Shown here: in pieces, positions 2,616 through 61,680 of the stretch
How positions within the stretch are numbered: the stretch's first letter is position 1
How the letters are laid out: every line of letters begins with the position of its first letter
DNA from: Halichondria panicea
Taxonomy: Eukaryota > Porifera > Demospongiae > Suberitida > Halichondriidae
DNA length: 64,000 nt
NCBI RefSeq assembly: GCF_963675165.1
Contig: NC_087381.1
Span: 1,302,001 to 1,366,000, forward strand
Direction of reading: 5' to 3'
The notes under the pieces: model-generated
Seen by the model: only the letters and a program-made list of their open reading frames with translations
Databases searched by the model: none
Told to the model about the DNA's origin: nothing
Made by a program: the position numbers and the translations under genes

Positions 2616-3878
2616 TCAACGGACGTACACATCAACTAGCTCAATGGGTGTGTCTTCATTGCTAATGCGCTCATCACCACAAAGCCTCAACTCAATATCA
2701 TCTGTAGTTGGTTGAGGGAGTTGCTTGCAGAACCACGGTGGATTGTTGAACTCACAGCAAGCACTGGTACTCCCGCATTCCTGACCATCCCAGAGTGGAT
2801 CATCAGGGTAAAAGGTATCACTAAATGCTCGTCGACTTCCAGTTTCACAGAAGTAATCTTGACCAATGAATGGAGGTACAACTCCATCCCAGGGGAGGTC
2901 AGGTCTTGTGCAGGGACATACCCGTCTATCGATTTGAGTTTCATCGACTGCATTCACAAATGTCCAGATGTGCTGACGAGGCGAGTTACCATGAGTTAGG
3001 CTCACGCCATCAACGTAAATATCATCAATAGATACCTTTCTGTTGAAGAAATATGGAGTGAAAGCATCCGGAGTGCTACTTTGATATGCAATGATTCGAC
3101 CACAAACTTTTGAATACTCCACCCCATAAGTTGAATAGGTAGTAGACAGACATCCCAGTGCACGTTTTCCACAAGTACGCAGTGGTGGTGTCGTCCTGAT
3201 TACCAGTCTAAATCCTTCTGGGCAGTTTTGGTTGGAATCGGTCATGTCAAGGTTGGCTACTCTCATCCATCCTCCTGCAGTGTTGCACCTACAACTTGTT
3301 CGAATCATGTCACAGTAGACCTGGACAGGAGAGCTAGTACTCTCAGTCACAATCCAGTATTCTCCTGATAGTCGGTCTTGAGAGATGTCACTGCAAGAGC
3401 TAGCTGGGTTGTTGATTGTTCCAAGATTAAATGGATCAATTGTGTTGGATTGGTTATTTAGTTGTTCCGTCATTGACTGATCCTCCTGGTTCTTCAACTC
3501 TATATTGGAGTACGCGAGTGCTGCCGCGAGTGCTGCCACAGCTGCTAACAGAGACAAAAAAACAAAAGCTAGGACGGAAAGGATTGCAAACCGCTTCTTA
3601 GTACATCCATTTTTAGTTAAGACTTGCCTTGTTCCACTATTTGTATTGCTCAGAACGTTGGAGGTAGAATTAGTTTCTGCTGTAAACACTTCTCTGTTTA
3701 CTGCATAGGCTGTGTTAATTTTCGATGCAAATGTTTCTCTCCCATTGTTCTCAACCACAGTGTAGCCATTATCTTGGGTAGAATCGTTATTGTAAGCAGT
3801 GTTTCCTTGCAATGCAATGGCTTGTGTTTCTTTTGTGTTGTTAGCGTGCGCAACTTTGTAGGCAATGTTTACTTCCAT
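2616..3878 (-). CDS. P2: FReD-like type II transmembrane receptor, intact, short stalk
   Basis: The frame is complete: 420 residues and one exon, with ATG at 3878 in the conserved leader. Residues 1-95 are a polar cytoplasmic tail with repeated Tyr sites (NTAY at 29, NGYTVVEN at 39). Residues 97-122 are a hydrophobic helix preceded by Lys/Arg (CTKKRF), so N-in/C-out topology is expected and there is no signal peptide. The stalk is short (123-156) with an N-glycosylation sequon (NQS). Residues 158-420 are the cysteine-rich domain, starting with SSCSDI, SGEYWI, VQVYCDM and GGWMRVANLDM like the N-terminal part of fibrinogen-related domains. It then follows a family-specific pattern ending in NNPPWFCKQLPQPTTDDIE. 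Function is unknown; a cell-surface binding or recognition role is inferred. Loop after the sixth Cys: GKRALGC, close to P4 and P17. Confidence 0.9.
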   Translation of the reverse strand: MEVNIAYKVAHANNTKETQAIALQGNTAYNNDSTQDNGYTVVENNGRETFASKINTAYAVNREVFTAETNSTSNVLSNTNSGTRQVLTKNGCTKKRFAILSVLAFVFLSLLAAVAALAAALAYSNIELKNQEDQSMTEQLNNQSNTIDPFNLGTINNPASSCSDISQDRLSGEYWIVTESTSSPVQVYCDMIRTSCRCNTAGGWMRVANLDMTDSNQNCPEGFRLVIRTTPPLRTCGKRALGCLSTTYSTYGVEYSKVCGRIIAYQSSTPDAFTPYFFNRKVSIDDIYVDGVSLTHGNSPRQHIWTFVNAVDETQIDRRVCPCTRPDLPWDGVVPPFIGQDYFCETGSRRAFSDTFYPDDPLWDGQECGSTSACCEFNNPPWFCKQLPQPTTDDIELRLCGDERISNEDTPIELVDVYVR

Positions 3879-4595
3879 AATTCACTGTTGAAACTCCACC
3901 AGACCACAGGCTTGAAATAGAGAGGCTGTTACTGTATTGAGGTGCTGGCCATTGCAATAGTTACAGGTTGTGTTATAAGAGAATTTGGTGACTTGCATGA
4001 GGATGATTCTACCACTTGCATAACCGTGTGCATTCATTTTGACACTTGACAAAACAGCAAAACACATTTTATTACATAATCAATACAACACTAAGCGTGC
4101 AGAGCTATTTTGTAACTAATTGTAAGCACAATTATACTACAACTGAGAAGAGGTCCGACATGCATGCTGAATCACTACAAATGCTAGTGCATTGACCTCA
4201 ACATCATCACGTGACCGCATTGACATTAATGCACTGAATTTGTAGTGATTCATGCACGCATGTCGGACCTCCTAGCTCTGACTACAACTAGAGCACTAAA
4301 GTACAGAACCCTCGGCGCTAGTTGCATGCATGGGGCTGTATAAAATCCGATAATTTCATATAAGAGATGTCCTATATTGGTGGGAGGGGCTGCTGGATGC
4401 TGCACAATGTTCACTAGCAGTGGGGCAGGATGGGTACGACATTGAAAATGATGCATAATAATAGTATGCACACATGCTCAATTTAAATATTTATACTGTG
4501 AACCATTTCATTCATCATTTGTCAATTGCTAAAAAGTGAAAGGAAAAATAGATCTATGCATGCTACTCTCTTTCTGATGGTGCCAGTGTCCCAGT
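3879..4595. other. Upstream flank of P2
   Basis: The conserved leader (3,879-3,935) is followed by diverged family upstream sequence. Unlike several copies I see no TATAAAAC at the usual distance. A direct/inverted 8-12 base motif pair around the TGCATG words at 4,155 and 4,250 also occurs upstream of P6 and P12. No gene is seen. Confidence 0.45.
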
Positions 4596-4599
4596 ATCG

Positions 4600-7353: not shown

Positions 7354-8761
7354 TCAGCGTATGTGCATCTCAACTAGCTCAATTAATGGGTGTGTTTTCA
7401 TTAAATGTCCTCATTACCACAAATCCTCAACTCGATATCGTCTGTAGTTGGTTGAGGGAGTTGCTTGCAGAACCAAGGTGGATTGTTGAACTCAAAGCAA
7501 GTACTGTTACCCCCGCATCTCTGACCATCCCAGAGTGGATAATCAGAATAAAAGGTATCATAAGTAAAGAGCTGTCGGCTTCCAGTTTCACAGAAGTAGT
7601 CTTGACCGATGAAGGGAGGTACAAATCCAATGTATAGGGGAAGTCGGGACGTGTACAAGGACAAGCCTCGCCATCGGATCGGGTTTCATCGATTGCATTG
7701 ACAAATGTCCAGATATGCTGACAAGGTGACTGTCCATGGGTTAGGCTCACACCATCAATGTAAACATCATCAATAGATAAAGCTCTGTTTTTGAAATATG
7801 GAGCAAAAGCATCTGGTGAACTGTTTTGAAATGCAATGATTCGACCACAAACCTTTGAATACTCCACCCCATAAGTTGAATAGGTAGTAGACATCCCAGT
7901 GCATGTTTGCCACAAGTACGCAATGGTGGTTTTCTGTTCTGGTTACCAGTCTCAATCCCTCTGGGCAATTTTGGTTGGGATCGGTCATATCCAGGTTGGC
8001 TACCCTCATCCATCCTCCTGCAGTGTTGCAGCTACAGCTTGCTCGATTCATGTCACAGTAGACCTGAACAGGAGAGCTAGTACTGTCAGTGGTAATCCAG
8101 TATTCTCCAGATGGTCGGTCTTGAGGGATGTCTTTGCAAGAGCTTGCTGGGTTTCCTATTCTAGTTCCAGGGTAGAATGCCATTGGACCTAACTCCGCAA
8201 TAATGGACTGTACGTCATTGAGGTCTCGAATAATAATTTCAATTTCCTCAGAAGTGTTACTTGAAAGAGCTAGGATTGAATTGCTGAGTTGACTGGATTG
8301 GTTGTTTAGTTCCTCGTTGGTAGACTGTACTTGCTTATTAGTACTGCTCAGTTGCTCAGAAAATTTGTTTTGAAGGGAGTAAAATTGAATTACTGAGTTG
8401 AGCTTGTAGGATTTGAATCTGTTGACTGGATTGGTTGTTCAGTTGCTCGTTCATTGACTGTACCAGCTTATTGGTACTGATCATCTGGTTCTTCAACTCT
8501 ATATTGGTGTACACCAGTGCTGCCACAGCTACCAACAGAGACAGAACAAAAGCTATGACGGCAAAAATTGCAAACCATTTTTTACCATATTCATTTTTAG
8601 CCACTTCTTGCCTTATTCTCTTTGTGTTACTTTTGTTATCCAGGACACAACTTTCGGTAGATTTAGTATCTCCAGCAGTATTACGCAGTGGCAGTGGCTT
8701 GTGTTTCTCTTTCTCTTCTGTTGTTAGCGTGCACAACATTGTAGGCAGTGTTTAGCTCCAT
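7354..8761 (-). pseudogene. P4: FReD-like receptor paralogue, long stalk, multiply frameshifted
   Basis: Full-length remnant with ATG at 8761. The tail runs into a stop (QATATA then TAA) because a segment is missing. A separate frame restores the membrane helix and stalk to about 8,356, where one extra base in the LLLQNNF codons shifts it again. The ectodomain is split by one-base insertions in the RTEPPLRT codons (about 7,930) and PYTGVVPP codons (about 7,640), and by a four-base deletion before STTYSTYG. A last shift lies at GNEDI close to the C-terminus. Loop after Cys 6: GKHALGC, as in P17. The many independent lesions make this a clear pseudogene. Confidence 0.9.
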
Positions 8762-10322
8762 AACATTCACTGTTGAAACTCTACCAGAGAGGCTGTTACT
8801 GTATATACAGACTCTGCTGTGTTGTATACATCTCAGTGCAGCACGCGCTACATTTCCTTGTTTTTTCTAATTGGTATTTACCGCTTACACAGTATGTCAT
8901 CTGCTTTCGATCGACAACAAGTGTGGGAGGCTGCCCATTGGGAATTCTTAGCTAAACTCTATAATATACTTGAGTTGAGTTGGGTCCTCAAGGCCACTGT
9001 TGTTGCATACTTGTTTCAGATCTACCTCCCTCCTCGGTTTTGCTCACCGCCTCCATTAAGTCATTACTGCTGATGTCAGCACTATTTGACGTCAAAGTTC
9101 AAAAAAATCAAACGTCACTTCTATCTATTAGTACAACCAGTAGGTTGTACATAGAATTGACACTCACAGTGCTATTGACTGTGTGTGTTTTCAATTATTG
9201 CACACATTTTCACTCGTGTTCAAAATGCTCTATTTCTGCAGGAAAAGGCCACATCAAGAAACTGACTGAACAGATAGCTTATTATAATTATACTTAGTGG
9301 TTTGATATACTTAGTGGTTTGACATAACTTGCAATGTTTATATAGAGCAAGCCAATATTGATTACCGGCCGTAGTAATATAATTATTGGTGTATGGTGGG
9401 CCGTTTGTTTCAAAATTCAAATGTTACATTTTCATTCAGATTACAATACATATTCATTCAAGATACACGTTCATTCAAGATTTTGATGCATTCATATATA
9501 TACATTAATTCGTTCAAGATATGCATACAGTCATTAAAACACAACGTTTAATTATAAGAGATGATTAATGGTCAAAACTCGGAAATCGGCAATTAAATCT
9601 GCTTGACCTCCTGTTAAATTTTCGTTGAACTGCCCAAATAAACATTTTCGTACAATTACCTTGAATAATTTGATTTTCGTACGTACCACACTTACGTTAC
9701 CACTAATTGATAACAGCTGCATGATGTACATATTAAATTATACAGTTTTCAAAATATTTTTAAAGTTTTTTCCGAATTTTTTTAATTTACTTTCCTCGAC
9801 TTTTTGACCCTCTTGAACCTCCTTTGGGGTAGCGGAGGATACATGTATATGCATAGATATATGTGTGCATATTCTTCTAAGGTGTGCATGGTCATAGATA
9901 AACGAAAGGGAGGCAGAGCGATAGAGAGAGAGCAGAGGAGGATTGTCACGGTTAAAAGTATGAAGCTGCTGCTTCTGGAGGATTAAATCCCACTCAGCTA
10001 GCTCTCCGGAGTCCGGAGATACTAAAAAAAGAATAGATGTCCTGAATGGAATTCAATTAAAGTTCTCATTCAGGAAGCAGCTTTTGCACATTTTGCATGA
10101 ATTCGAATGCATAAAAATCTTGTATGAAAATTGCACATCTTGATTGAATACTTCAATGAATGTATAAAACGTTCGTGTACAGGTTACGATTAGTGTTATT
10201 ACTTCGTAGGGAATTGCTACAGCTATCACGACGTTCATAGCAATTATTATAGCTGCTATATTATTCAGTTTCTACTCTTGGTTCTAGAGCTATAGCTACA
10301 GTGTGTAAAAACGAAAATGTGT
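8762..10322. other. P4 upstream flank and AT-rich spacer, no gene seen
   Basis: The leader of P4 reaches to about 8,815. The remainder is AT-rich, with simple-sequence stretches (TTCATTCAAGAT words at 9,430-9,520) and no frame with recognisable similarity. Bases 10,190-10,320 are the P5 3' flank, also present next to P22 at 58,860-58,990. Confidence 0.45.
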
Positions 10323-11582
10323 TCAGCGAATGTATATTTCGGTAATCTCAATTGGTGTGTCTTCATCACGTAAAGGTTGATCAGCACAAATCCTCAACTC
10401 GATATCGTCTGTAGTTGGTTGAGGGAGTTGCTTGCAGAACCATGGTGGATTGTTGAACTCACAGCAAGTACTGGTACCCCCGCATCCCTGACCGTCCCAG
10501 AGCAAATCATCAGCATAGAAGATACCATTATTAAAGAGCTGTCGGCTTCCAGTTTCACAGAAGTAATCTTGACCGATGAATGGAGGTACAACTCCAGTGT
10601 AGGGACGGGGACGGTCAGGTCTTGTGCAGGGACATACCACTGTTCTCATAGAGCTATCTTCATGAAGTGCGTTAGCAAATGTCCAGATGTGCTGACGAGG
10701 CGAGTGACCATGGGTTAGGCTCACACCATCAACGTAACCATCATCAATAGATAAAGCTCTGTTATCGAAATATGGATCGAAAGCATCCGGAGTACTATCT
10801 TGATATGCAATGATTCGACCACAAACGTTCGAGTACTCCACCCCATAAGTTGAATAGGTAGTAGAAGTACATCTTCGTTCCATTCGGCCACAAGTACGCA
10901 ATGGTGGTTCTTCCCTGGTTACCAGCATCAATTCTTCGGGGCAATTTTGGTTGGGATTGGTCATGTCAAGGTTGGCTACCCTCATCCATCTTCCTGCAGT
11001 GTTGCAGCTACAGCTTGTTCGATTCATGTCACAGTAGACCTGAACAGGAGAGCTAGTACTGTCAGTGGTAATCCAGTATTCTCCAGATGGTCGGTCTTGA
11101 GGAATGTCACTGCAAGAGTTTGCCGGGTTGTTGATTGTTCCAAGATTAAAAGGCTCAATTGTGCTGGATTGGTTATTTAGTTGTTCCGTCGTTGACTGAT
11201 CTTCTTTGTTCTTCAACGCTATGTTGGTGTATACCAGTGCTGCCACAGCTAGCAACAGAGATAAAAAAGCAATAGCTAGAACGGAAAGGATTGCAAACCA
11301 CTTCTTATCACATTCATTTTTAGCACATCCTTGCCTTTTTTTCTTTGTATTGTTCAGAACGTTGGAGGTGGAATTAGTTTCTGTTGTAAACACTTCTCTG
11401 TTTATTGCATAGGCTGTGTTATTTGTTGATGCAAATGTTTCTCTCCCATTGTTCTCAACCATAGTGTAGCCATTATCTTGGGTAGAATAGTTATTGTAGG
11501 CAGTGTTTCCTTGCAATGCAATGGCTTGTGTTTCTCTTCTCTTGTTGGCGTGCGCAACTTTGTAGGCAGTGTTTAGCTCCAT
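10323..11582 (-). CDS. P5: FReD-like type II transmembrane receptor, intact, short stalk
   Basis: 419 residues, single exon, ATG at 11582. The tail (1-94) contains NTAY at 29 and NGYTMVEN at 39; the basic CDKKWF precedes a helix at 96-118. The stalk is short (119-149) with sequon NQSS. The cysteine-rich domain spans 151-419 with all framework motifs (SGEYWI, VQVYCDM, GGWMRVANLDM altered to GRWMRVANLDM, IGQDYFCETGS, NNPPWFCKQLPQPTTDDIE). Loop after Cys 6: GRMERRC, shared with P23. C-terminal variable stretch: ADQPLRDEDTP, shared with relic P22. A TATA box lies about 80 bases upstream. Family function is unknown; a surface recognition role is inferred. The 5' third has an inverted near-copy in P13. 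Confidence 0.9.
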   Translation of the reverse strand: MELNTAYKVAHANKRRETQAIALQGNTAYNNYSTQDNGYTMVENNGRETFASTNNTAYAINREVFTTETNSTSNVLNNTKKKRQGCAKNECDKKWFAILSVLAIAFLSLLLAVAALVYTNIALKNKEDQSTTEQLNNQSSTIEPFNLGTINNPANSCSDIPQDRPSGEYWITTDSTSSPVQVYCDMNRTSCSCNTAGRWMRVANLDMTNPNQNCPEELMLVTREEPPLRTCGRMERRCTSTTYSTYGVEYSNVCGRIIAYQDSTPDAFDPYFDNRALSIDDGYVDGVSLTHGHSPRQHIWTFANALHEDSSMRTVVCPCTRPDRPRPYTGVVPPFIGQDYFCETGSRQLFNNGIFYADDLLWDGQGCGGTSTCCEFNNPPWFCKQLPQPTTDDIELRICADQPLRDEDTPIEITEIYIR

Positions 11583-11658
11583 AATTCACAGTTGAAACTC
11601 TACCACTGACTTGAAATAGAGAGGCTGTTACTGTGCATGGGGTTATGTAGTTGCCGTG

Positions 11659-13309: not shown

Positions 13310-14392
13310 TTAGCGTATGTACATCTTAACTATCTCAATGGGTGTGTCTTCATTACTAATGACCTCATCACCACAAAGCCTCAACTCAATATTGTCTGTA
13401 TAATTATAGTTGATTGAAGGCGTTGCTTGCAGAACCACGGTGGATTGTTGAACTAGTACTGGTACCCCCGCATCCCTGACCATCCCAGACTGGATCATCG
13501 GAATAGAAGATATGGTTATTATGACTAATGTGTTGTCAGCTTCCAGTTTCACAGAAGTAATCTTGACCGATGAAGGGAGGTACAACTTCAGTATAGGGGA
13601 GGTTAGGTCTTGTGCAAGGACACACACTAGAATCGGATTGAGTTTCATCGATTGCATTCACAAATGTCCAGATGTGCTGACAAGGCGAGTGACATAGGTT
13701 AGGCTCACACCCTCAACGTAAACATCATCAATAGATAAAGTTATGTTGAAGAAATATGGGTGAAAAGCATTTTGGAGTGCTACTTTGATATGCAATGATT
13801 CGACCACTTGAGAGATGTCACTACAAGAGCTAGCTGGGTTCATTCTTGTTCCAGGATAGAATGCCATTAGATCTAACTCAGCAATAATATACTGTAGGTC
13901 ATTGAGGTCATTAAGGTCTCGAATAATAATCATTTTGCTCAGAAATGTTGCTTGAAAGAGCTAGGATTGAATTGCTGAGTTGACTGGATTGGTTGTTTCC
14001 CTCGTGGATTGTACGTGCTTGTTGGTACTGATCATCTGGTTTTTCAACTCTATATTGGTGTACACCAATGCTGCCACAGCTACTAACAGAGACAGAACAA
14101 AAGCTATGATGGCAAGGATTGCAAACCACTTTTTAGCACATCTATTTTTAGCCAATTGCAAGCCAAGCCTTTTTTTCTTTGTATTGCTCAGAACAAGTAG
14201 AATTGATTTCTGCTGTAACCACTTTTCTGTTTATGCATAGGCTGTGTTATTTTTCGATGCAAATATTTCTCTCCCATTGTTCTCAACCATAGTGTAGCCA
14301 TTATTGTAAGCAGTGTTTTCCTGCAATGCCACGGCTTGTGTTTCTCTTCTGTTGTTAGCGTGCGCAACTTTGTAGGCAATGTTTAGTTCCAT
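13310..14392 (-). pseudogene. P6: FReD-like receptor paralogue with large internal deletion
   Basis: ATG at 14392, TAA at 13310-13312. The tail is frameshifted near 14,200. The membrane helix is intact (about 14,050-14,130), and the stalk is shortened. The ectodomain starts NPASSCSDISQ and jumps directly to VVESLHIKV (out-of-frame SKVCGRIIAYQ region), deleting roughly 100 codons including the GGWMRVANLDM core. Near the end, an 8-base AT insertion (TAATTATA) sits at the QPTTD codons. P12 shares the internal deletion, so it predates the inverted duplication. Confidence 0.9.
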
Positions 14393-15466
14393 AATTCACT
14401 GTTAACTCCACCGGACCACTGGCTTGAAATAGAGAGGCTGTTACTGTATTGAGGTGCTGCGTTAAGTACAGCACTCGGTACATTTCCTTGGTACATTTCC
14501 CTTTCCTGATTTTTCCTTCTTTTAAAGCATTGCAGCAGTTACAGGTTATGCATGTTATAAGAGAATCGTGGGTGACTTGCATGATGATGCATAACCGTGT
14601 GCATTCATTTTGGCACTTGACAAAACAGTAGTCAAAGCTAGTGCACAACACATCTTATTACATAATCAAGTGTGTAGAGCTTTTGTAGTACAACTCAGAA
14701 GAGGTTCGACATGTACGCATGAATCACTGCAAGTGCTAGTGCATTGGCCTGGCTGGACATTATCACGTGACCGCATTGACATTAATGAACTTGTAGTGAT
14801 TCATACATGCATGTCGATTAGAGCACTAACGTGCAGAACCCTCGGTGGTTGTACCATAATTTCACATGAAAATAAGCTGCAGCTTTCCTACATTGGTGAG
14901 AGCTGCTGGATGTTCACTAGCGGTGGGGCAGGATGAGTACAAATTTTACTCCATGAAAATTACACCCTACATACACGGTATTTGGTATTTCAGTCATCTG
15001 ATGTCAAGGTTGAGAAGTGTGGGAAGCTGCACATTTTAGGGTGCTTAAGAATAACTATAAATTTTGGAAATCATCGCTGCACATTTCAGGGTGCCTATAC
15101 ATTTTGGAATTAGGGAAATCTTATAATTGATTGAAATAATTGTGTAGGGTGGGCTTCTCACCAAAATAATATTAATATCGCTACAAACTGAGATGTAAGT
15201 TCCTACAATGCCGATATAATTATAGTGTCTGCACTCGATAGCTTGTCAATCATGACTCCATTGCTAACATAAAAAGAACGTTAACATAATTATTGTGCTA
15301 CATGTACATGCATATAGTGTACGTATAAAACTAATTATGGTAACCTGTCATATAATTATACCGAAGGTGGCCATCAATCCCAGAAGCTAGTTTGATTCAT
15401 ACACACATTAATGCCTATGTCTCGTCCTACTATAGTGTCTATGAATAATTGTCTTGAGCGTGATAT
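14393..15466. other. Spacer between P6 and P7, no gene seen
   Basis: This is the P6 leader and upstream flank, then the P7 3' flank. It is closely matched in inverted orientation by 27,650-28,686. No frame with similarity to known proteins is seen. Confidence 0.6.
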
Positions 15467-16761
15467 TCAACGAACGTACATCTCAATTATCTCAATGGGT
15501 GTGTCTTCATTGCTAATGACCTCATTTCCACAAAGCCTCAACTCGATATTGTCTGTAGTTGGTTGAGGGAGTTGCTTGCAGAACCACGGTGGATTGTTGA
15601 ACTCACAGCAAGTACTGGTACCACCGCATCCCTGACCGTCCCAGAGTGGATCATCAGGGTAGAAGATAAGCCTAAAGCGCTGTCGGCTTCCAGTCTCACA
15701 GAAGTAATCTTGACCAATGAAGTGAGGTACAGTTCCAGCGTAGGGGAGGTCAGGTCTTGTGCAGGGACATACCGCTTCGTTAATAGAGCTATGTTCGTGA
15801 AGTGCGTTAGCAAATGTCCAGATATGCTGACGAGGCGACTGTCCATGGGTTAGGCTCACACCATTAACGTAAACACCATCAATTGATAAAGATTTGTCAT
15901 GAGTGAAACCATCTGGACTGCCACTTTGATATGCAATGATTCGACCACAAACTTTCGAATACTCCATCCCATAAGTTGAATAGGTAGTGGAAGTACATCC
16001 TGCTGGTCCTTCCACTCGGCCACAAGTACGCAGTGGTGGTTCTGTCCTGGTTACCAGTCTCAATCCCTCTGGGCAGTTTTGGTTGGGATCGGTCATGTCA
16101 AGGTTGGACACCCTCATCCATCCTCCTGTAGTGTTGCAGCTACAGCTTGTTCGATTCATGTCACAGTAGACCTGAACAGGAGAGCTAGTGGTGTTAGTGG
16201 CAATCCAGTATTCTCCAGATGGTCGGTCTTGAGGGATGTCACTGCAAGAACTTGCTGGGTTGTTGATTGTTCCAAGATAAAGTTTTTCAAGAATGCCCTG
16301 CAGTTGCTCGGTCATGAACTGCATTTGCTTATTGCTACTGCTCATCTGGTTCTTCAACTCTTTGGTACTGATCATCTGGTTCTTCAACTCTACATTACTG
16401 TACACTAGTGCTGCCACAGCTATTAACAGACACAGAACAAAAGCTATGACAGCAAGAAATGCAAACCACTTTTTAGTGCATTCGTTTTTAGCTAAGCGGT
16501 GCCCTTTTTCCTTTGCATTGCTCAGAACGTTGGAGGTAGAATTGGTTTTGTTGTACACATTTTTCCATAGGCTGTGTTATTTTTCGATGCGAATGTTTCT
16601 CTCCCATTGTTCTCAATGAGACTGTAGACATTATCTTGGGAGGAATTTATTTCATCTGAAGAAATCTCGTTGATATCATAAGCAGTGTTTTCCTGCAATG
16701 CAGTGGCTTTTCCTCGTCTGTTGTTGGCGTGAAAAACATTGTAGGCAACGTTTGGCTCTAT
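15467..16761 (-). pseudogene. P7: near-intact FReD-like receptor paralogue; start codon lost, one-base frameshift
   Basis: Almost identical to intact P11 over its whole length. Two differences disable it: the start ATG (equivalent to 26,350) is ATA at 16,759-16,761, and an A5 run in the tail is A4 (16,546-16,549 on the plus strand reads four T), shifting frame after about 70 codons. Downstream of that the frame is open to the TGA, covering membrane helix, medium stalk (two copies of ELKNQM) and the complete cysteine-rich domain with loop GRVEGPAGC. An upstream GTG in frame with the ATA exists but use of it is unlikely in an animal gene. The homopolymer difference could be a sequencing error; the start loss is a substitution. 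Confidence 0.85.
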
Positions 16762-16838
16762 AATATTCACTATTGAAACTCTACCACTGACTTGAAATAG
16801 AGAGGCTGATACTGTATGGAGTTATTATAGGTACTGCG

Positions 16839-16846
16839 TTTTATAC
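16839..16846 (-). promoter_or_regulatory. TATA box of P7
   Basis: The minus strand reads CTTAATGTATAAAACGC about 80 bases upstream of the lost start. It matches the P11 promoter exactly over the box. Confidence 0.55.
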
Positions 16847-17408
16847 ATTAAGTGCAGCACTTGGTAAGTATTTCCCTTCCAGATTTGTCTATAATGCATC
16901 GATGAGTTACAGGTTGTTGTGTAACTTGTTTACAAGAGAAGTGTGCATGGGAGGCTTGCATGATGATTCTACCGCTTGCTTGTTTGTTCTAACTGCTTGC
17001 GTGATGATTCATTCATTTTAGCACTGCATGCGCATGATAACACAACACCTTGTACCATGGTTTCACCAAAGATCGGTTTTAATTACATGCATATATACCT
17101 TGGCTGTTACAATAATGCTCTTTTTGCAGAAACTTCGATAGTTGGTGTGTATACATTCCTGTACTTTTATAGGAAGTTTTGCAAGGTGCATGCATGTGGA
17201 TGGTGCTTAGAACACACACTTAGCCAAGACTAAGTTTAGTTATACAACTTGACCAGTTTTCTACCTGGCTGCATTTGAATCCATTTCATTCAATGTCTCA
17301 ATTTGCTTGTATTTTTCATGAGAACAGTAACTAGTTTAACAGGTTCAGCTGTGCGCTCAAATGAATCTCGGCTAGCTAAGTATGGTTTCATTCCAGTGGT
17401 ATCTCCCT

Positions 17409-24960: not shown

Positions 24961-25039
24961 AATTATATAATTATAATTATGTGGTTAACTGGTATGCCAT
25001 TTACATTATTTCTGCTTGGAGCTTATCACCTCTAAAGCA

Positions 25040-26258: not shown

Positions 26259-26266
26259 TATAAAAC
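26259..26266 (+). promoter_or_regulatory. TATA box of P11
   Basis: TATAAAAC 91 bases before the ATG at 26,350, inside the conserved stretch AAGTGCTGCACTTAATG. The conserved leader CCTCTCTATTTCAAG follows downstream. Confidence 0.65.
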
Positions 26267-46529: not shown

Positions 46530-46609
46530 GTGGGAAGTACATTAACCCCATGCATGCACAGTAACAACCTCTCTATTTCAAGTCAGTGGTAGAGTTTCAA
46601 CTGTGAATT

Positions 46610-47860
46610 ATGGAGCTAAACACTGCCTACAAAGTTGCGCACTCCAGCAAGGGAAGAGAAACACAAGCAATTGCATTGCAAGGAAACACTGCCTACAATA
46701 TCTATTCTACCCAAGATAATGGCTACACTATGGTTGAGAACAATGGGAGAGAAACATTTGCATCGAAAAATAACACAGCCTATGCAATAAACAGAGAAGT
46801 GTTTACAACAGAAACTAATTCCACCTCCAACGTTCTGAGCAATACAAACAAAAAAAGGCAAGGATGTGCTAAAAACAGATGTACTAAGAAGTGGTTTGCA
46901 ATCTTTACCGTCCTAGCTATTGCTTTTTCCTCTCTGTTAGTAGCTGTGGCAGCACTGGTGTACACCAATATAGTGTTAAAGAACCTGGAAGATCAGTCAA
47001 TGACGGGACAACTAAATAACCAATCCAGCACAATTGAGCCTTTCAATCTTGGAACAATCAACAACCCGGCAAGCTCTTGCAGTGACATCTCTCAAGATTG
47101 ACCATCTGGAGAATACTGGATTGCCCCTGACACTAGCTCTCCTGTTCAGGTCTACTGTGACATGAATCGAACAAGCTGTAGCTGCAACACTGCAGGAGGA
47201 TGGATGAGGGTAGCCAACCTTGACATGACTGATCCTAACCAAAACTGCCCAGAGGGATTGAGACTGGTAACCAGAACAGAACCACCATTGCGTACTTGTG
47301 GCCGAATAGAAGGACCAGCACGATGTGTGTCTACTACCTATTCAACTTATGGGGTGGAGTACTCAAAAGTTTGTGGTCAAATCATTGCATATCAAAGTAG
47401 TACTTCAGATGCTTTCGATCAATTCTTCAAAAACAGATCTTTATCTATTGATGATGGTTATGTTGATGGTGTGAGCCTAACCCACGGACAGTTGCCTCGT
47501 CAGCACATCTGGACATTTGCTAATGCAATCGATGAAACTCAATCCAATAGATTGGTGTGTCCTTGCACAAGACTTGACCTCCCCTACATTGGAGTTGTAC
47601 CTCCCTTTATTGGTCAAGACTACTTCTGTGAAACTGGAAGCCGACAAGAACATACATTTACTTTCTACCCTGATGATCCACTCTGGGACGGTCAGGGATG
47701 CGGGGGTACCAGTACTTGCTGTGAGTTCAACAATCCACCGTGGTTCTGCAAGCAACTCCCTCAACCAACTACAGACGATATCGAGTTGAGGCTTTGTTCT
47801 GATGAAAGCATTTATGATGAAGACACACCCATTGAGATAATAGAGATGTACGTACACTAA
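46610..47860 (+). pseudogene. P19: FReD-like receptor paralogue with a single premature TGA
   Basis: ATG at 46,610, stop at 47,858. The only lesion is TGA at 47,099-47,101 where all relatives have CGA (the Arg of QDRPSGEYW); reading continues in the same frame on both sides. Tail (NTAY, NGYTMVEN), helix (about 104-126), short stalk and the whole ectodomain are otherwise intact, with one in-frame codon loss nearby (APDTSSPVQ). Loop GRIEGPARC; C-terminal variable stretch SDESIYDEDTP unique here. The last codon is CAC (His) instead of Arg. A CpG-type C-to-T change explains the stop. A null allele of an otherwise functional gene is plausible. Confidence 0.88.
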
Positions 47861-48435
47861 AATAGACATATTGAATCATTTCTAGAACTGAAGACATTAA
47901 TAAATAATGTACAGCCACTTACATTGTGAGTTAACTTCATTAATTAAAGGCATGCATGTATGTACAATGTACCGTACTATACTATCAAAACACAACTATA
48001 TTTAATGAGCATAACTTAATTGAGTTCTGGTAGTCCAGATTTAAGTTTTTGTGGTTTTCTGAAAGTTTAGAAACAGTGTTTTCAAATCATTTTCACCCAA
48101 TTTAAGCAAAAGGAATGGTACAACATCTAAAATTAAGAGCTAAGCACATGCACCATTTGACAATAATTAGTACAGGGCACTCATGAGAATTTCCACCGGT
48201 AGTTTTGTCTGCACAAGCGACAGCTAAAATATCAACAAGTGTATAGTACATGTACATTAAGTATACGGTATACCCTGTCCAGAAATTGTCAATTAAGGAA
48301 AGTATGTACATGCACTAAAAAAGAAAGGCCAACAAACTAACAAGGATGCTACTAAACAGTTTTACACACATGCATGTATATAATTATTACAGCAATAATT
48401 GTAACCCTACTTTGGAGATCCCACTACTAGGGTGT
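47861..48435. repeat. P19 3' flank and a dispersed repeat
   Basis: Bases 48,170-48,435 (GAGAATTTCCACCGGTAG to GGAGATCCCACTACTAGGGTG) recur at 52,020-52,285 in the same orientation without a neighbouring gene. The repeat ends exactly where family sequence of P20 begins, suggesting insertion or recombination at this point. Confidence 0.65.
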
Positions 48436-49282
48436 ACACCAATATAGAGTTGAAGAATAACCAATCCAATCTTGGAACAATCAACAACCCAGCAAGCTCT
48501 TGTATAATAGTGACATCCTTCAAGACCGACCATCTGGAGAATATTGGATTGTCACTGACAGTACTAGCTCTCCTGTTCAGGTCTACTGTGACATGAATCG
48601 AACAAGCTGTAGCTGCAACACTGCAGGAGGATGGATGAGGGTAGCCAACCTTGATATGACTGAATTCAACCAAAACTGCCCCGAGAGATTGAGACTGGTG
48701 AACAGGACAGAACCACCATTGCGTACTTGTGGCCGAGAAGGACCAGCAGGATGTACTTCCACTACGTATTCAACTTATGGGGTGGAGTATTCGAAAGTTT
48801 GTGGTCGAATCATTGCATATCAAAATAATACTCTCACTCCTTATTTCATTAACATATCTTTATCTATTGATGATGTTTACGTTGATGGTGTGAGCCTAAC
48901 CTATGGACAGTCGCCTCGTCAGCACATCTGGACATTTGCTGGTGCAGTCGATGAAACTCGATCCGATGCTCATGTGTGTCCTTGCACAAGACCTGACCTT
49001 CCCTACACTAGAGTTGTACCTCCCTTCATTGGTCAAGACTACTTCTGTGAAACTGGAAGCCGACAGCGCTTTATATAATACCTTCTATTCTGATGATCCA
49101 GTCTGGGATGGTCAGGGATGCGAGGGTATACCAGTACTTGCTGTGAGTTCAACAATCCACCGTGGTTCTGCAAGCAACTCCCTCAACCAACTACAAACGA
49201 TATCAAATTGAGGATTTGTGGTGAGCAATCTTTAGTCGATGAAGACACACCAATTGAGATTGCCGAAATATACATCCGCTGA
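48436..49282 (+). pseudogene. P20: 5'-truncated FReD-like receptor paralogue
   Basis: Family sequence starts in the last helix codons (VYTNIELKN) and jumps straight to NLGTINNPASSC, so tail, helix and stalk are missing. A five-base AT insertion (TGTAGTGAC to TGTATAATAGTGAC, about 48,503) shifts the frame. The ectodomain is then open to about 49,075, with loop GREGPAGC and FAGAVDETRSDAH as in P15 and P23. A two-base loss (TTTATTTATAAT to TTTATATAAT) and a two-base gain (GGTACC to GGTATACC) follow, after which the C-terminus GEQSLVDEDTP and AEIYIR is intact; TGA 49,280-49,282. The 3' flank matches P15. Confidence 0.88.
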
Positions 49283-52460: not shown

Positions 52461-53650
52461 TAAAATTACGGCGGGTAATTTTCGGGGGGCAAACATTTCA
52501 TGACATAGTTTTCCTAGTTGAAGCCCTGAGCACGAATATTTTACTCGAATGAAGCGATTATTGACCACCTTTACCTGCAGTGGCACCACGAAATTAATAT
52601 CCACAAACTGACTAAATATTGCTCAACCACGAATGTTGAAATTATACCTACTATAGATAGAAGAGCTGGTAGATAGAAGTGCTTTGATGAGTTAGTTTTC
52701 AATTTCCTTACAGTAATGGTGTTATTATTATAGTTAAGTCTAATAGCTATTTCTCACACTTAGGTGATGTTCCAAGTCAATGTTACATAGTCTGTCTTAC
52801 ATAGTCTGTTTTTAATTACAAAGTGAATTGGCTCACTCGTAAAGGTTTTCCAATTATAGTAAGGTATTGTTTTGTACTAATGCGTGTGAAGATCACACAC
52901 ACTGTTACTGTTACCTATTACAATGTCATGTGTAGTAGCTGTTAGAATAAAGTCCCTGTTCCGTTTTGCGTTGCACATAAAATTATAGCAAGGCTGCAAA
53001 CAGAAATATAACGATAATTGAACGCACCATAATCACGATTTTTCGCCACTTTATACTGAGTCAGCAACATTGAGACACAAAGATCCAAGAAAGGCAGCTT
53101 CGTCTAGCTAGCCATTGTGGAAGGCTAGCGCTAGTGAGATCAGTGTATGCAGAGAGTTCATTTCTACCGTATAGCAGGTTATTTCGTATGGTAGAAATGG
53201 AGTATCCCAGTATTGCTTGATCATCTTCCCCCACCCCTCACCTAGTATCAGCTGGCACTGAGATGCTCTCCTCTCCAATATTCTGTTTTTACGCTAATGT
53301 AACAGTAAATCAATTAACTTGCCGTAATAATTTTTAATGAACTGCCTTGCATTGCTGTCCCGTTCTTTACAGAAGCGCTTCAACAGCCATTTGAAAAATG
53401 CTACTGAAAGCTTATTCTCTATAATAATTGTCATTAATTTTGTCATGTATTGTATCGGGCCACCAATTCTGCTGTTTGAATAGTATGGTAAAAGTGAGAT
53501 GTAATACGTAACCCCATTGCTAACAAAAAAAAAAAGTTACTATATTAATGTAATGCAACCTGGCCATTCAACCATAGATGATTACAAACTAGATTTTTTT
53601 AAAACAGCATGTACCCAGGTCTCGGCTCTAATACTGTCTATCTGCATTTA
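52461..53650. other. MITE remnant and spacer, no gene seen
   Basis: Bases 52,461-52,655 are a diverged GCGGGTAA-family MITE. Bases 52,685-52,800 are inverted to 40,075-40,195. Bases 53,150-53,410 resemble 4,600-5,115 (P2/P3 spacer), and 53,540-53,650 match the inverted 3' flank of P9/P17 (TCTCGGCTCTAATACTGTC). No coding sequence recognised. Confidence 0.5.
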
Positions 53651-53659
53651 ATTGTCTTG

Positions 53660-55240
53660 AGCAAATGTCCAGATGTGCTGACGAGGCGACTGACCATGGG
53701 TTAGGCTCACACCATCAACGTAAACATCATCAATAGATAAAAATCTGTTGTCGAAATATGGATTGAAAGCATCCGGAGTTCTACTTTGATATGCAATGAT
53801 TCGACCACAAACTTTCAAATACTCCATCCCATACGTTGAATAGGTAGTGGAAGTACATCCTGGTTCTTCTACTCGGCCACAAGTACGCAGTGGTGGTTCT
53901 GTCCTGGTTACCAGTCTCAATCCCTCTGGGCAGTTTTGGTTGGGATCGGTCATGTCAAGGTTGGCTACCCTCATCCATCCTCCTGCAGTGTTGCAGTTAC
54001 AGCTTGTTCGATTCATGTCAAAGTAGACCTGAACAGGAGAGCTAAAGGTGTCAGTGGCAACCCAATATTCTCCAGATGGTCGGTCTTGATGGATATCACT
54101 ACAAGAGCTAGCTGGGTTGTTGATTGTTCCAAGACAAAATGACTCCAGTTCTTCAAGGATAGACTGTACGTCGTTGAGATTTTTCAAAATATGTTTGAAA
54201 TGTTGCTTGAAAGATCTACAATTGAATTGCTGAGTTGACTGGATCGGTTGTTCAGTTCCTCGTTGATAGACTGTACTTGCTTATTGGTACTGCTCAGCTG
54301 CTTAGAAAAGTTGTTTTGAAAGAGTACAATTGAATCATTGAGTTGAGCTTGTAGGGTTTGAATCTGTTGACTGGATAGGTTGTTCAGTTTCTCGTTCATG
54401 GACTGTACAGTGCATCCAGTCTAGAGAGTAGAATACAAAAATTGGTGAGTAGTTGTACTTAGATGTATCTCAAGATTGGAACATTTCTAAGAAATTGTGC
54501 TGATACCATTGTATAGGTAAAAGAATAAGCTACAACACAGTTCAAAAATATTTCCCCAAAAGTTGTTGTAGTGGGAAATAATTTTAGGAGATAATGGGGT
54601 GATTATAAAAAAATGTACGTAACATCAATTATCTCTGGAACTAAAGTATTTTTGGAAAATTTTTTCTTATCAAAAGTTTAACAATTTATTCAAGCTTACT
54701 CTGTGTAATTTTTAGACCTTAGCCGTGAGATTGTCTTCAAATCTCTCCCTAACCGAAACGGCACTAAAAACTAGCAATTTTGAGCACTGCAGAGGATGTG
54801 TAGATATTTAAGTAACATCGAATCTTTCATAAGATAGCCAAACTATCTATAGATGTTGTGACAAAGTTCCAAACCTTAGCCGGAAACCGTTGGCCTTTTC
54901 TCTCCCTAACCGATTACCCACTATAACAATTGGGTACTGTTTTATTAATCACAACAAACCCACCATCTTATGTTGTCATGGAAACAATTTTGGACGTATT
55001 GTAGCTCATTCATTTGCCCACTCAATGGTATCAGCAGATTTTCTTAGAAATGTTCCAATCATAAGATATTTACATTTAAGTACAACTACTCACACATTTT
55101 TGGTATTCTACTGGATGCACTGTACTTGATTTGGTACTGATCATCTGGTTCTTTAACTCTATATTGGTGTACACTAGTGCTGCCACAGCTAGCAATATAG
55201 ACAGAATAAAAGCTACGATGACAAGAATTGCACAAAATCT
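53660..55240 (-). pseudogene. P21: FReD-like receptor paralogue truncated at both ends, with MITE
   Basis: On the minus strand: the helix (from about 55,240, already broken at its start) and first stalk codons, a 715-base MITE, then the rest of a long stalk (SMNEKLNN, LQAQLNDSIVLFQNNFSK). A frameshift follows at about 54,195 (SNIS then NIF), then the ectodomain from NPASSCSDI to RQHIWTF. There the last about 120 codons are deleted and the 3' flank (GCTCAAGACAATTAAATGC) follows directly. One framework Cys is changed (VQVYFDM instead of VQVYCDM). Loop GRVEEPGC as in P9. No tail or promoter remains. Confidence 0.88.
54408..55122. mobile_element. Tc1/mariner-like MITE with TA target duplication
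   Basis: 715 bases. The ends are imperfect inverted repeats (CAGTGCATCCAG at the outer edge; then AGAATAC, AAAAAT, GTGAGTAGTTGTACT inside), flanked on both sides by TA (54,406-54,407 and 55,123-55,124) within the stalk codons of P21. TA duplication and CAGTG ends are typical of Tc1/mariner. A diverged inner inverted symmetry continues (for example CTTAGCCG/TCTCCCTAACCG words near 54,720 and 54,880). No transposase frame is seen. Confidence 0.8.
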
Positions 55241-55823
55241 TCTTGCAGTTCGCTTCTGCAGTTGACTTTTTCAGTTGCTCAATCTCACAATCTCACTTGT
55301 TGCCCAGTGAGTGGGCAGATCAAAGCAATCCAGTGCTCAGTATATGGCATGTTGCATCACTGCCATGGCTACCATATATTGCACTGGATTATATGCACTT
55401 GCACTGTGTGTAAATGCAGTAGATTTCTTTAACCATTTGGGACTTATGCCCCACCATCCCACCTAATAACTCATTTGGTTCGTTTTATAGGCTACTACTT
55501 TTATAACTACTAGTGGGAAGAAAACCTAAAAATTTACTATGGAATTCAGCAAACTAATGAATACACTAAATTCCTTCAAAACACATGTCTTTTATTACGA
55601 TTTATATGACCAGTCAGACGAGTTTAACGTTATTGGGCAACAAATTAGTTATTGCAGGTGCCCTCGTGCAACATGCCATATATTGCACTGGATGACATAA
55701 TGCCCGAGGGCCGCAGGCTGCAGGTCCCGAGGGCATTATATTGCTCCAGTGCAATATATGGCATGTGTTGCACTCTGGCTGGGCAATAACTAATACATGA
55801 CATCAACATGTGCTGATCTGATT
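55241..55823. repeat. Repeat block inserted beside P21
   Basis: A few minisatellite units (TTCGCTTCTGCAGTTGACTT), then sequence absent from the paired region at 38.8 kb. Bases 55,300-55,380 match 20,745-20,840, and 55,640-55,800 are a foldback with TTGCACTGGAT and CCAGTGCAATATATGGCATG arms around a CCCGAGGGC core. No gene. Confidence 0.6.
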
Positions 55824-55901: not shown

Positions 55902-55905
55902 TTAA

Positions 55906-57400: not shown

Positions 57401-57404
57401 TGAT

Positions 57405-58993: not shown

Positions 58994-59079
58994 TCAGCGG
59001 ATGTATAATTCGGTAATCTCAATTGGTATGTCTTCATCGAATGAAGATTGATCAGCACAAATCCTCAACTCGATATCGT
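58994..59079 (-). pseudogene. P22: last 28 codons of a family member
   Basis: The minus strand reads DIELRICADQ, SSFDEDIPIEITELYIR and TGA at 58,994-58,996; closest to P5. It breaks off at 59,080 into sequence paired with 37,560-37,720. Nothing of the rest of the gene is present nearby. Confidence 0.8.
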
Positions 59080-59322
59080 GTGTCTGCTCAAGGTTCGATG
59101 AAGTGCAAGTAAGAGTTTCTATAGGCTTCTTGTCATGGACCAAAATGTGTTGTTCTAGTAACAACTTTTGGGTTGCCTATACACTTGTTCTATAATTTAA
59201 CACCTCATAGTTGTTAATGCTAAACAATACAGGTTGTTACTATACTATACAATTCTCTGCATGGAACATTAATCCCTGGAACATTAATCGTGTAACTTGA
59301 TACGCATGTTCATAAGTATAGG

Positions 59323-59869
59323 ATATACCACACCTATAAGAGGAGGATATATAGGGTGCATATCCTCCGAGTAGGTGTGGCATATCTGACTTATACCACG
59401 TGACCGCAGCACTATAAAAGGACCTCCCCCTAGCAACAATTCAATCACGATGCAGACTGCAAAAAAGAACAAGACTATGCCGGATTTTGCAGCTGTCAAA
59501 GAGCTAGTTGAGCAACATGTTGACTCCTACAGATGCTCAAGAGCTTCCTTGGTCCAAGCGTTGACCATTCGACGTCCCTTACTGGAGTTGCAAGCTCTTC
59601 TTGAATAAAATGTATCTAAACCGCGCCCATGGACCCATGGAAGCTTAGCCATCTTGTTGGAGAGCACCTTCCGTGTTTCTGCCGTCGCTTTGAGTCTTAG
59701 TACCGTCAAGTATGGCTCTTTTCTCTTTGCTTACTTTCTTGAACAAATGAAAAAACAAAAAAAACAACTTGAAAAACTGTGCATGCCTGGGGCTGTATGC
59801 TAATATTCTATATATCCTACAGCTGTTGACCAATGAGATCAATTTGTGGTGACGTAAGTGTAGTATAAT
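59323..59869. mobile_element. TIR element with internal TATA box, copy 3 (least decayed)
   Basis: Ends ATATACCACACCTATAA and inverted ATTATACTACACTTA. Compared with copies 1 and 2 it lacks their one-base insertion and 16-base deletion, so its small frame is open. It adds a few A residues in AAAAAACAAAAAAAACAAC. Confidence 0.65.
59450..59608 (+). CDS. Small open frame inside TIR element copy 3
   Basis: 52 codons from ATG 59,450 to TAA 59,606-59,608, or 43 codons from a second in-frame ATG at 59,477. A TATA box (TATAAAA, 59,413) lies 37 bases upstream of the first ATG, so a transcript would have a very short leader. The peptide (starting MQTAKKNKTMPDFAAVKEL, later RASLVQALTIRRPLLELQA) is basic and looks helical; I recognise no family. 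In copies 1 and 2 it is broken by the same deletion. It may be the first exon of a lost autonomous transposon gene; a second open stretch follows at about 59,660-59,806. Whether it is expressed is unknown. Confidence 0.35.
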   Translation: MQTAKKNKTMPDFAAVKELVEQHVDSYRCSRASLVQALTIRRPLLELQALLE

Positions 59870-60206
59870 ATAGATTATATGAATCAGTGACATAGATTAG
59901 CTCAAAAATGGCAACATAATTATAGTCTTTGTGTACATTTTCAATGTCATAAAATTAATGTTCAGGCGACTGCTGTAAATAAAAATAAGCATGAAAAAAA
60001 TTAGTATGAACAATTTCCACTGATTCAAATAATATATATAATCTATATTATGAACATGCGTATCAAGTTACACGATTAATGTTCCAAATGTATAAAATTA
60101 TAAGCACCGTACGCTATTATTCAGTTTCTACTCTTGAGAGCTAGCTTTTCAGTTTCTACTCTTGAGAGCTAGCTTTAATAAATTATGAATAGAAACGAAA
60201 ACATGT
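59870..60206. other. P23 3' flank
   Basis: Inverted match to the P15 and P20 3' flanks (TGAATCAGTGACATAGATTAG, TTCAGTTTCTACTCTTGAG twice in tandem at 60,120-60,175). No gene. Confidence 0.6.
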
Positions 60207-61680
60207 TCAGCGGATGTATATTTCGGCAATCTCAATTGGTGTGTCTTCATCGACTAAAGATTGCTCACCACAAATCCTCAATTCGATATCGTTTGTAGTT
60301 GGTTGAGGGAGTTGCTTGCAGAACCACGGTGGATTGTTGAACTCACATGCAGCAAGTACTATTACCCCCGCATCCCTGACCATCCCAGAGGGGATCATCA
60401 AGGTAGAATATACGACTAACTGCTTGTCGGCTTCCAGTTTCACAGAAGTAGTCTTGACCAATGAAGGGAGGTACAACACTAGTGTAGGGGAGGTCAGGTC
60501 TTGTGCAAGGACACACATGAGCATCGGATCGAGTTTCATCGACTGCACCAGCAAATGTCCAGATGTGCTGACGAGGCGACTGTCCATAGGTTAGGCTCAC
60601 ACCATCAACGTAAACATCATCAATAGATAAAGCTCTGTTAATGAAATATGGAGTGAAAGCATCCGGAGTATTATTTTGATATGCAATGATTCGACCACAA
60701 ACTTTCGAATACTCCACCCCATAAGTTGAATAGGTAGTAGAAGTACATCTTCGTTCCATTTGGCCACAAGTACGCAATGGTGGTTCTGTCCTGGTTACCA
60801 GTCTCAATCCCTCTGGGCAGCTTTGGTTGGGATCGGTCATGTCAAGGTTGGCTACCCTCATCCATCCTCCTGCAGTGTTGCAGCTACAGCTTGTTCGATC
60901 CATGTCACAGTAGACTTGAACAGGAGAGCTAGTACTGTCAGTGGCAATCCAGTATTCTCCAGACGGTCGGTCTTGAGAGATGTCACTACAAGAGCTTGCT
61001 GGGTTGTTGATTATTCCAGGATAGAATGTCATTGGACCTAACTCCGCAATAATGGACTGTACGTCAATGAGGTCTTCATTTTGCTTGGAAATGTTGCTTG
61101 AAAGAGTTAGGATTGAATTACTGAGTTGACTGAATTAGTTGTTCAGGTCCTCAATGGTAGACTGTACTTGCTTATTAGTACTGTTCAGCTGCTCAGAAAA
61201 GTTGTTTTGAAGGAGTTAAATTGAATCACTGAGTTGAGCTTGTAGTGTTTGAATCTGTTGACTGGATTGGTTGTTCAGTTCCTCGTTCATGGACTGTACT
61301 TGCTTATTGGAACTGATCATTTGGTTCTTCAACTCTATATTGGTGTACACCAGTGCTGCCACAGCTACCAACAGAGACAGAACAAAAGCTATGACGGCAA
61401 GAATTGCAAACCATTTTTTACCGTATTCATTTTTATCCAATTCTTGCCTTATTTTCTTTGTGTTGCTTTTGTTGTCCAAAACAATTTCGGTCGATTTAGT
61501 AGCTTCAGCAGTATTATACGTTATGTACGTAGTGTTGTCAACGGTACTGTACTCATTTTCGTCTGTTTGGGTGGGGCTTTTCTGGTTGGCATTGTGAACA
61601 ATGTTTTCCTGCAATGCAGTGGCTTGTGTTCCTCTTCTGTTGTTAGCATGCACAACATTGTAGGCAACGTTTGGCTCCAT
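60207..61680 (-). pseudogene. P23: FReD-like receptor paralogue, long stalk, several small indels
   Basis: ATG at 61680. Tail (NEYSTVDN, NTTYITY), helix and first stalk block are open for 154 codons to a stop caused by one missing T (TCAATTTTACTC to TCAATTTAACTC). The rest of the stalk has more stops (about 61,136). The ectodomain is open from 61,032 (MTFYPGIINNP) to a four-base insertion, CACAGC to CACATGCAGC in plus orientation at about 60,347, inside TCCEFNN. After it the C-terminus is intact (GEQSLVDEDTP, AEIYIR, TGA 60,207-60,209). Loop GQMERRC resembles P5, while FAGAVDETRSDAH and the C-terminus match P15 and P20, a mosaic pattern. Confidence 0.9.

Follow-up and report, generated by a model that had tools for sequence, protein, structure and literature searches.

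Receptor genes in the window

The stretch of DNA analysed here, referred to as the window, comprises 64,000 nucleotides of the sponge Halichondria panicea (positions 1302001-1366000 of contig NC_087381.1, here C5) and contains an array of related genes for predicted type II membrane receptors. An earlier note, made from the letters of the window alone, had described at least 23 copies sharing a cytoplasmic tail, a helix, a stalk and a 16-cysteine head. Intact copies do carry all four parts together, and a head with 16 cysteines, counted on the alignment, is the common form. However, tblastn with three copies, with high-scoring segment pairs grouped by eye, recovered 21 recognisable copies or fragments, most without all of the parts, and only four run from methionine to stop in one frame in a listing of stop-to-stop open reading frames (ORFs). 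The remaining copies are truncated or interrupted by stops or frame changes; the left edge of the window cuts through one of them, and some survive only as a tail or as a remnant of 29 amino acids (aa). The earlier count was inflated by broken genes. The copies are as follows (window positions).

2616..3881, minus strand: intact copy, 421 aa stop to stop, with tail, transmembrane (TM) helix, short stalk and head; YTVV is its only tail motif
10323..11585, minus strand: intact copy, 420 aa stop to stop; YTMV is its only tail motif
26350..27645, plus strand: intact copy lying in an inverted duplication (right arm), with YSLI and YGKM in its tail
32906..34513, plus strand: intact copy, 535 aa, with a repeated coiled-coil-like stalk; tail with an immunoreceptor tyrosine-based switch motif (ITSM), TAYDVV, and YSTI; head modelled
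46607..47860, plus strand: near-complete copy with one in-frame TGA
15467..16764, minus strand: copy with open head whose tail changes frame; belongs to the left arm of that duplication
19215..20479, minus strand: copy with a frameshift in the head
35728..37192, plus strand: copy whose head is open but whose upstream part changes frame
60207..61683, minus strand: copy broken in the stalk and near the C-terminus
7404..8764, minus strand: broken copy
13313..14395, minus strand: broken copy in the left duplication arm
21548..23007, plus strand: broken copy
28684..30182, plus strand: broken copy in the right duplication arm
40781..43153, plus strand: broken copy whose parts are separated by some 1.2 kb of other sequence
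48432..49279, plus strand: broken copy
53612..55303, minus strand: broken copy
5..508, minus strand: N-terminal part of a copy that runs leftward past the edge of the window; open frame without the usual start
24783..25034, plus strand: tail fragment
32046..32512, plus strand: tail and TM fragment
44892..45152, plus strand: tail fragment
58997..59083, minus strand: C-terminal fragment of 29 aa

The window is one part of a larger family. A search of 131,455,214 bases in 39 contigs gave at least 110 matches; counted by hand, about 66 of these span the head in a single frame without stops. They cluster on C5 at 0.88-0.95, 1.25-1.38 and 1.58-1.62 Mb and on contig C13 at 4.09-4.42 Mb, with others scattered over further contigs. 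One head is combined with several front ends. The type II membrane forms carry differing tails; coiled-coil forms starting MKYQLL look secreted (C5, 0.88-0.93 Mb); mucin-like forms with TEPAATTDPP repeats lie in ORFs without a start (C5, 0.933 and 0.945 Mb, with a related one at 1.618 Mb) and probably have an upstream exon. In other members (L048, L049) a collagen stalk is combined with a short tail, and a further group of short proteins (L053, L056, L057) appears secreted on inspection by eye. A hydropathy script detected a TM-like helix in 28 of the 43 ORFs of at least 250 aa. The stalk is encoded by a tandem repeat of varying number, and one ORF, which lies outside the window, reaches 742 aa.

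Architecture of the receptors and relatives of the head

A type II topology with an N-terminal cytoplasmic tail is predicted by the hydropathy script and by a positive-inside layout judged by eye. The parts can be followed in the copy at 32906 (all plus strand; R1 to R5 are the variable loops, S2 to S9 predicted strands).

32906..33163: cytoplasmic tail, 86 aa, with conserved tyrosines
33164..33220: hydrophobic core of the TM helix (best 19-aa hydropathy window), with Lys/Arg on its N-terminal side (type II)
33245..33581: tandem 138-bp repeat encoding the coiled-coil-like stalk
33725..33850: N-terminal piece resembling a fibrinogen-related domain (FReD), YCDM...GGW, model residues 1-42
33851..34510: jelly-roll body, model residues 43-262
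33950..33976: loop R1, connection S2-S3
34070..34096: loop R2, connection S4-S5
34172..34210: loop R3, connection S6-S7
34295..34327: loop R4, connection S6-S7
34454..34471: loop R5, connection S8-S9

Two head models were obtained with a predicted local distance difference test (pLDDT) of 86.5 and 85.5 and a predicted template-modelling score (pTM) of 0.87. The body models as a jelly-roll beta-sandwich of the type found in carbohydrate-binding modules (CBMs), MAM and Eph domains; the fold matches have modest Z scores and are not decisive, and the jelly roll is best described as a predicted fold. A porphyran-binding CBM (8xmz) was the top match of the first model, and CBMs were frequent among the matches of both. 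Known jelly-roll binding domains (CBM16, porphyran-binding CBM 8xmz, meprin MAM, Eph ligand-binding) have 3-15% identity to the first model, and the family head has 16 cysteines. Neither fibrinogen nor intelectin was among the best 50 fold matches listed for either model, an absence that is no proof. The five loops lie in every second strand connection and would therefore sit at one end of the jelly roll, if the strand order of the predicted fold is correct. Two distant heads (L047:97-792 and L043:925-1602) lack the R3 segment and its CPC cysteine pair and constitute natural loop deletions.

The description of the head as FReD-like in the earlier note is supported for the N-terminal piece and not for the body. 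The GGGWT_bact model NF040941 ('fibrinogen-like YCDxxxxGGGW') matches the head start in 35 of 39 heads at an expect value (E) of 0.1 or less (best 2e-8), and on member 1 its score of 27.2 bits lies under the curated cut-off of 30. Pfam COLFI matched 18 of the 39 heads at E<=0.1, by E-values below the cut-off, which one of the four whole window proteins passed by 0.3 bits over the N-terminal piece. Pfam Fibrinogen_C matched 4 of the 39 at E<=0.1 (best 0.005, below the gathering score) and, where ranges were given, only over the first 38-49 of 221 profile positions. A profile of the head matched fibrinogen beta chains at E about 0.01 over profile positions 1-77; besides fibrinogen, only two PDB sequences matched (E 0.16 and 0.58). 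No Pfam family covered the body of the head in the four whole proteins or the 39 heads. A FReD fold for the whole head was not supported, the sequence match being confined to the head start. Pfam scans of the four proteins gave no immunoglobulin (Ig) family at E<=1; no C-type lectin domain matched in these proteins (E<=1) or in the 39 heads (E<=0.1), and a match of one protein to the Ly49 N-terminal-region model (E 0.57) is at chance level.

Relatives of the head were detected in bacteria. A pattern-first search of prokaryote genomes (84,980 species) yielded four loci whose proteins align to most of the head, C-terminal strand included, at 28-32% identity (L059, L060, L062 and the fragment L061, all on Myxococcota-type contigs of metagenome-assembled genomes). 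Three are titled Myxococcota or Myxococcales and one Bifidobacterium, a title that is probably wrong because the GC content of the contig is 0.67. Two of these proteins pass the Fibrinogen_C cut-off over the first 46-49 positions and are also fused to MopE metal-binding repeats; the relatives look exported by eye. L059, L060 and L062 differ from the sponge family in the MopE-type repeats of two of them, in having no such tail that we could see and in having fewer cysteines. A phage or viral origin was rejected, as there was no phage match and no confirmed relative among viral contigs.

These relatives, together with the CBM matches, bear on the possibility that the genes encode adhesion or extracellular-matrix proteins, in which the head binds sugar or matrix, the fronts act as tethers and the loops serve many fixed partners. 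The presence of the same head in collagen-stalk (L048, L049), mucin-like (C5, 0.93-0.95 and 1.62 Mb) and secreted-looking forms points in the same direction. We regard this explanation as improbable, given the tyrosine motifs in the tails and a rapid turnover, pseudogene content and mosaicism that would, from general knowledge, be unusual for structural proteins.

Variation in the five loops

From the 43 ORFs, 41 heads were cut out; 31 of these exceeded 235 aa and were aligned, and 27 of the aligned heads were used, the heads C5_1321283m, 1338365p, 1317467m and 1300925m being left out of the entropy, substitution, recombination, linkage and strand analyses. Two of the 27 (1287067m, 1294905m) have an open head and a doubtful 5' end. 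The earlier note had placed the differences between copies in five short stretches and had quoted motifs from the first, all of which are present on translation: GKRALGC at 3170(-), GRMERRC at 10889(-), GRVEGPAGC at 16021(-) and 27091(+), GGQIERQVGC at 33950(+) and GREGPGC at 36635(+). Mean entropy over the 27 open heads was 1.51 bits in the five segments versus 0.42 in the framework, and among circular shifts of the five-segment mask the true placement was the best (1/261, itself). However, the concentration is incomplete, as 15 of the 40 most variable columns fall outside the segments (25 inside) and predicted strands S2a and S9 also vary. The same holds for the predicted fold: the connection segments bearing loops have 0.64-1.26 bits and the other four average 0.39-0.56 bits, with the two variable strands departing from the pattern. 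As had been noted, loop length varies; it does so in all five loops, although loop 5 departs from its usual length in a single copy, by a single residue, and two other short strings at that site were artefacts of the search pattern. There are 13 distinct gap patterns in the loops versus 7 in the longer framework.

Pooled over 351 pairs with bootstrap intervals, the ratio of non-synonymous to synonymous substitution (dN/dS) was 0.75 in the loops (95% interval 0.63-0.90) and 0.30 in the framework (0.27-0.34). The 69 pairs with a proportion of synonymous differences (pS) of 0.1-0.2 gave 1.11 in the loops and 0.37 in the framework, and 281 more distant pairs gave 0.69 and 0.29. The 23 copies outside the window had the same overall values (0.75 and 0.30), and the contrast in the uncorrected ratio, pN/pS, was repeated. 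Neither uniform variation along the head nor a loop dN/dS well below 1, the outcomes that would have spoken against the earlier note, was seen, but the loop ratio is clearly above 1 only against framework dS. Loop dN over framework dS was 1.48 (95% interval 1.29-1.74; 351 pairs), and 1.99 (1.77-2.22) in the 69 pairs.

The choice of yardstick matters because pS itself was 0.397 in the loops versus 0.238 in the framework. Around the loops it fell from 0.397 inside to 0.242 within five codons, then 0.267 and 0.261 up to 20 codons away and 0.182 beyond, only a weak form of the gradient expected if long conversion tracts carried the loops. Loop pS is raised mainly locally, perhaps as a consequence of codons hit more than once; among loop codons that differ, 49% have changes at two or three bases, and the Nei-Gojobori (NG86) estimate is uncertain in the loops. 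Two recent pairs have 11 of 27 and 9 of 20 differences in the loops, which make up about 18% of the length, and a third, recently converted pair has 1 of 4. As loop dN exceeds framework dS, we read loop substitution as diversifying change, although the neutral yardstick is debatable.

This pattern may have arisen instead from relaxed constraint with birth and death of genes, in which exposed loops drift in a tandem family and diversity carries no recognition role. The many broken copies, the failure of the loop ratio to exceed 1 by its own dS, the variation of two predicted strands and a tail dN/dS of 0.72 all favour such drift. It does not readily account for the alternation of the most variable connections with more conserved opposite ones, for loop dN over framework dS with its interval above 1, for loop lengths that vary in frame in open copies or for the low framework ratio, and we consider it unlikely.

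Mosaicism and gene conversion

Recombination among the heads was examined with our own script for a pairwise homoplasy index (PHI)-type test, not a published program. The statistic was 0.731 against a null of 0.783, with none of 1000 permutations as low, and clonality was rejected. The nearest neighbour of a head switches along its length, crossing front-end classes; C5_1607929m, for example, pairs with C5_1600336m in some windows and with C5_1590130m in another, at 100%. Among the 27 heads there are eight identical tracts of at least 100 nt, of which three join different front-end classes. All 27 five-loop combinations are distinct. In a test of linkage restricted to 23 C5 copies, loops 2 and 3 (r 0.49, 2/1000) and loops 3 and 4 (r 0.26, 15/1000) were linked, and 8 of 10 pairs were not linked at the 0.05 level (59 to 669 of 1000).

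A further indication comes from an inverted duplication within the window, whose arms of about 3.8 kb flank an 8.6-kb centre.

13406..17237, no strand assigned: left arm, partner 25874-29671
25874..29671, no strand assigned: right arm

Within one gene body the arms are nearly identical for about 1.1 kb (0-1 mismatch per 100 columns), against 0-8 mismatches, mostly 2-8, in the remainder; this contrast is a direct sign of conversion. Exact tracts of at least 80 nt numbered 80 entries between intact heads and pseudogenes versus 78 between intact heads, the latter counted twice, and some of these tracts are shared by copies lying 300 kb or more apart. Pseudogenes may act as conversion donors. Entropy, pN/pS, the PHI-type test, loop linkage and loop dN over framework dS agree with the earlier view of a diversified family, and a recognition family with a fixed framework and variable loops is well supported.

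Cytoplasmic tails and possible signalling

Tyrosine motifs were counted in 25 tails, five others (two collagen-type, three with broken 5' ends) being left out by name; of the 25, four or more (1253982p, 1292655m, 1321283m, 1581389m) belong to genes that are broken in other parts. Yxx[ILVM] is present in 23 of the 25 tails, and a canonical immunoreceptor tyrosine-based inhibitory motif (ITIM, [SIVL]xYxx[IVL]) or ITSM (TxYxx[VI]) in 14. The counts of Yxx[ILVM] (47 versus 17.0 expected), NxxY (59 versus 12.9) and ITIM (14 versus 3.6) lay above all 1000 shuffles, and that of ITSM (6 versus 1.2) tied the highest of 1000, with the qualification that paralogy makes such counts non-independent. Just one of the four intact window copies has a canonical ITIM or ITSM. 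Repeated motifs inside one tail are better evidence than pooled counts, and C5_1594530m and C5_1600336m contain the within-tail repeats NVAYNVV, NIAYNII, NIAYNIV and NPAYNIV. In 14 aligned tails of two classes, four tyrosine columns, three of them cytoplasmic, had 0.19 bits versus 0.88 for other columns.

A possible partner is encoded at C3:8.403-8.406 Mb, where exons follow the order SH2-SH2-PTP, the arrangement of SHP2, and the PTP exons include HCSAGIGRTG. We class this gene as SHP2-like by domain order and sequence likeness rather than by database comparison; together with the collagen-like proteins, it indicates an animal genome. Separately, exons for tyrosine-phosphatase domains crowd the region C4:0.04-2.6 Mb, to which most of the listed PF00102 matches (176 in all) belong, which suggests a tandem expansion of phosphatase genes.

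A reduced dN/dS beside the tail tyrosines was sought in the 14 tails and did not appear (0.74 versus 0.71), which counts against our reading of them. The motifs might alternatively be activating or endocytic (hemITAM, YxxPhi, NPxY-like), as in uptake or scavenger receptors of a filter feeder. The NxxY excess, the many non-canonical YxxV/I motifs and a -2 residue that is often N rather than S, I, V or L fit this possibility, which we rate as doubtful in view of the exact ITIM, repeated three times each in C5_1594530m and C5_1600336m, and of the encoded SHP2-like partner, although a gene of the SHP2 type has other roles in animals as well.

Sequence upstream of and between the genes

Many copies are preceded by a unit of about 21 bp in variable tandem number, about 165-230 bp and again 700-930 bp upstream. 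In gene orientation, 18 of 28 starts examined have at least one unit upstream, and 57 of 63 matches in 125 kb fall within 1.5 kb upstream of a start. The array could be a promoter element or a passenger of duplication. Its sites in the window are:

12305-12355
26093-26151
32546-32695
35337-35535
61900..62215, minus strand: tandem units upstream of a copy

Other tandem repeats, with units of 20-64 bp and, in 14 copies, of 13 bp, occupy window positions 51117-51922 and 56368-56551, apart from the receptor genes. An Rfam scan of the window gave no match at the gathering threshold.

A candidate recognition system

The observation in the earlier note of an expanded family with variable loops is partly confirmed and its interpretation partly supported; the tail tyrosine motifs, the loop mosaicism across front ends, the high pseudogene load and the bacterial relatives go beyond it. 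Its comparison with fibrinogen-related proteins (FREPs) proved weak. Mollusc FREPs are secreted and defined by one or more Ig-like domains before a fibrinogen domain. The sponge family shares with FReD proteins and FREPs the N-terminal YCD...GGW piece and its diversification in an invertebrate. Unlike FREPs, it showed no Ig domain, the body of its head differs, modelling as a jelly roll, and many members have a TM-like helix.

A closer parallel is provided by the type II C-type lectin-like receptors of the natural killer (NK) gene complex (Ly49, NKG2A; NKC cluster). These are described as type II receptors with ITIM and SHP signalling (PMC1193534). They resemble the sponge family in type II topology, a stalk with a globular head, clustered genes with pseudogenes and ITIM-type tyrosine motifs in the N-terminal tail (same source). 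In contrast, the sponge head has no C-type lectin domain by Pfam and models as a jelly roll, and the family consists of single-ORF genes whose loops are swapped as a mosaic, in what is probably an early-branching animal. The likeness is one of analogy, not of homology.

Our preferred explanation, held with middling confidence, is a large and fast-turning family of recognition receptors with secreted relatives, in which loops diversified by conversion would be coupled to phosphotyrosine output through SH2 proteins, most likely inhibitory. Its starting points, all read from sequence, are the architecture, the variation pattern, the mosaicism, the motif enrichment and the presence of an SHP2-like gene. 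The membrane members would be single-ORF type II proteins with an NxxY/YxxV-I tail, a helix, a coiled-coil-like stalk and a disulfide-rich head whose five variable loops, grouped at one end of the jelly roll, would contact ligand. The loop repertoires would arise through duplication, both tandem and inverted, and through ectopic gene conversion involving genes and pseudogenes; by conversion, copies that differ in tail or secretion signal would exchange loops, with the framework maintained by selection. Ligand binding may lead to phosphorylation of tail tyrosines and recruitment of SH2 proteins such as an SHP2-like phosphatase, with a dampened cell response as the most likely outcome, as in NK-complex lectin-like receptors. 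From this scheme we infer an inhibitory sign and an immune or self/non-self role.

A more far-reaching version is conceivable and, in our estimation, rather unlikely: a combinatorial, germline-shuffled repertoire with five largely independent loops, conversion from pseudogene donors and phosphotyrosine, secreted, mucin and collagen fronts, serving self/non-self or symbiont recognition in an early-branching animal, as an invention separate from the NK receptors whose task it would match, and with a head shared with Myxococcota. In either form, this is a novel combination of parts in a real, large and diversified receptor family.

To our knowledge, the sponge genes for self/non-self and for partner/pathogen discrimination are largely unknown. 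Our search of titles and abstract openings found no description of the family, and the motif strings NNPPWF, DPLWDG and GQDYFC did not occur in the literature texts searched. Published sponge surveys, in the portions available, centre on NLR, SRCR, GPCR and Ig families and do not describe it there. Fibrinogen-domain genes are among the responders to microbial signals in Dysidea avara (PMC6208332) and in H. panicea (PMC8242945). If the preferred explanation is true, a type II family diversified by conversion and bearing phosphotyrosine tails would offer a concrete candidate for recognition in sponges that is open to testing, and would represent convergence with the NK receptors of vertebrates.

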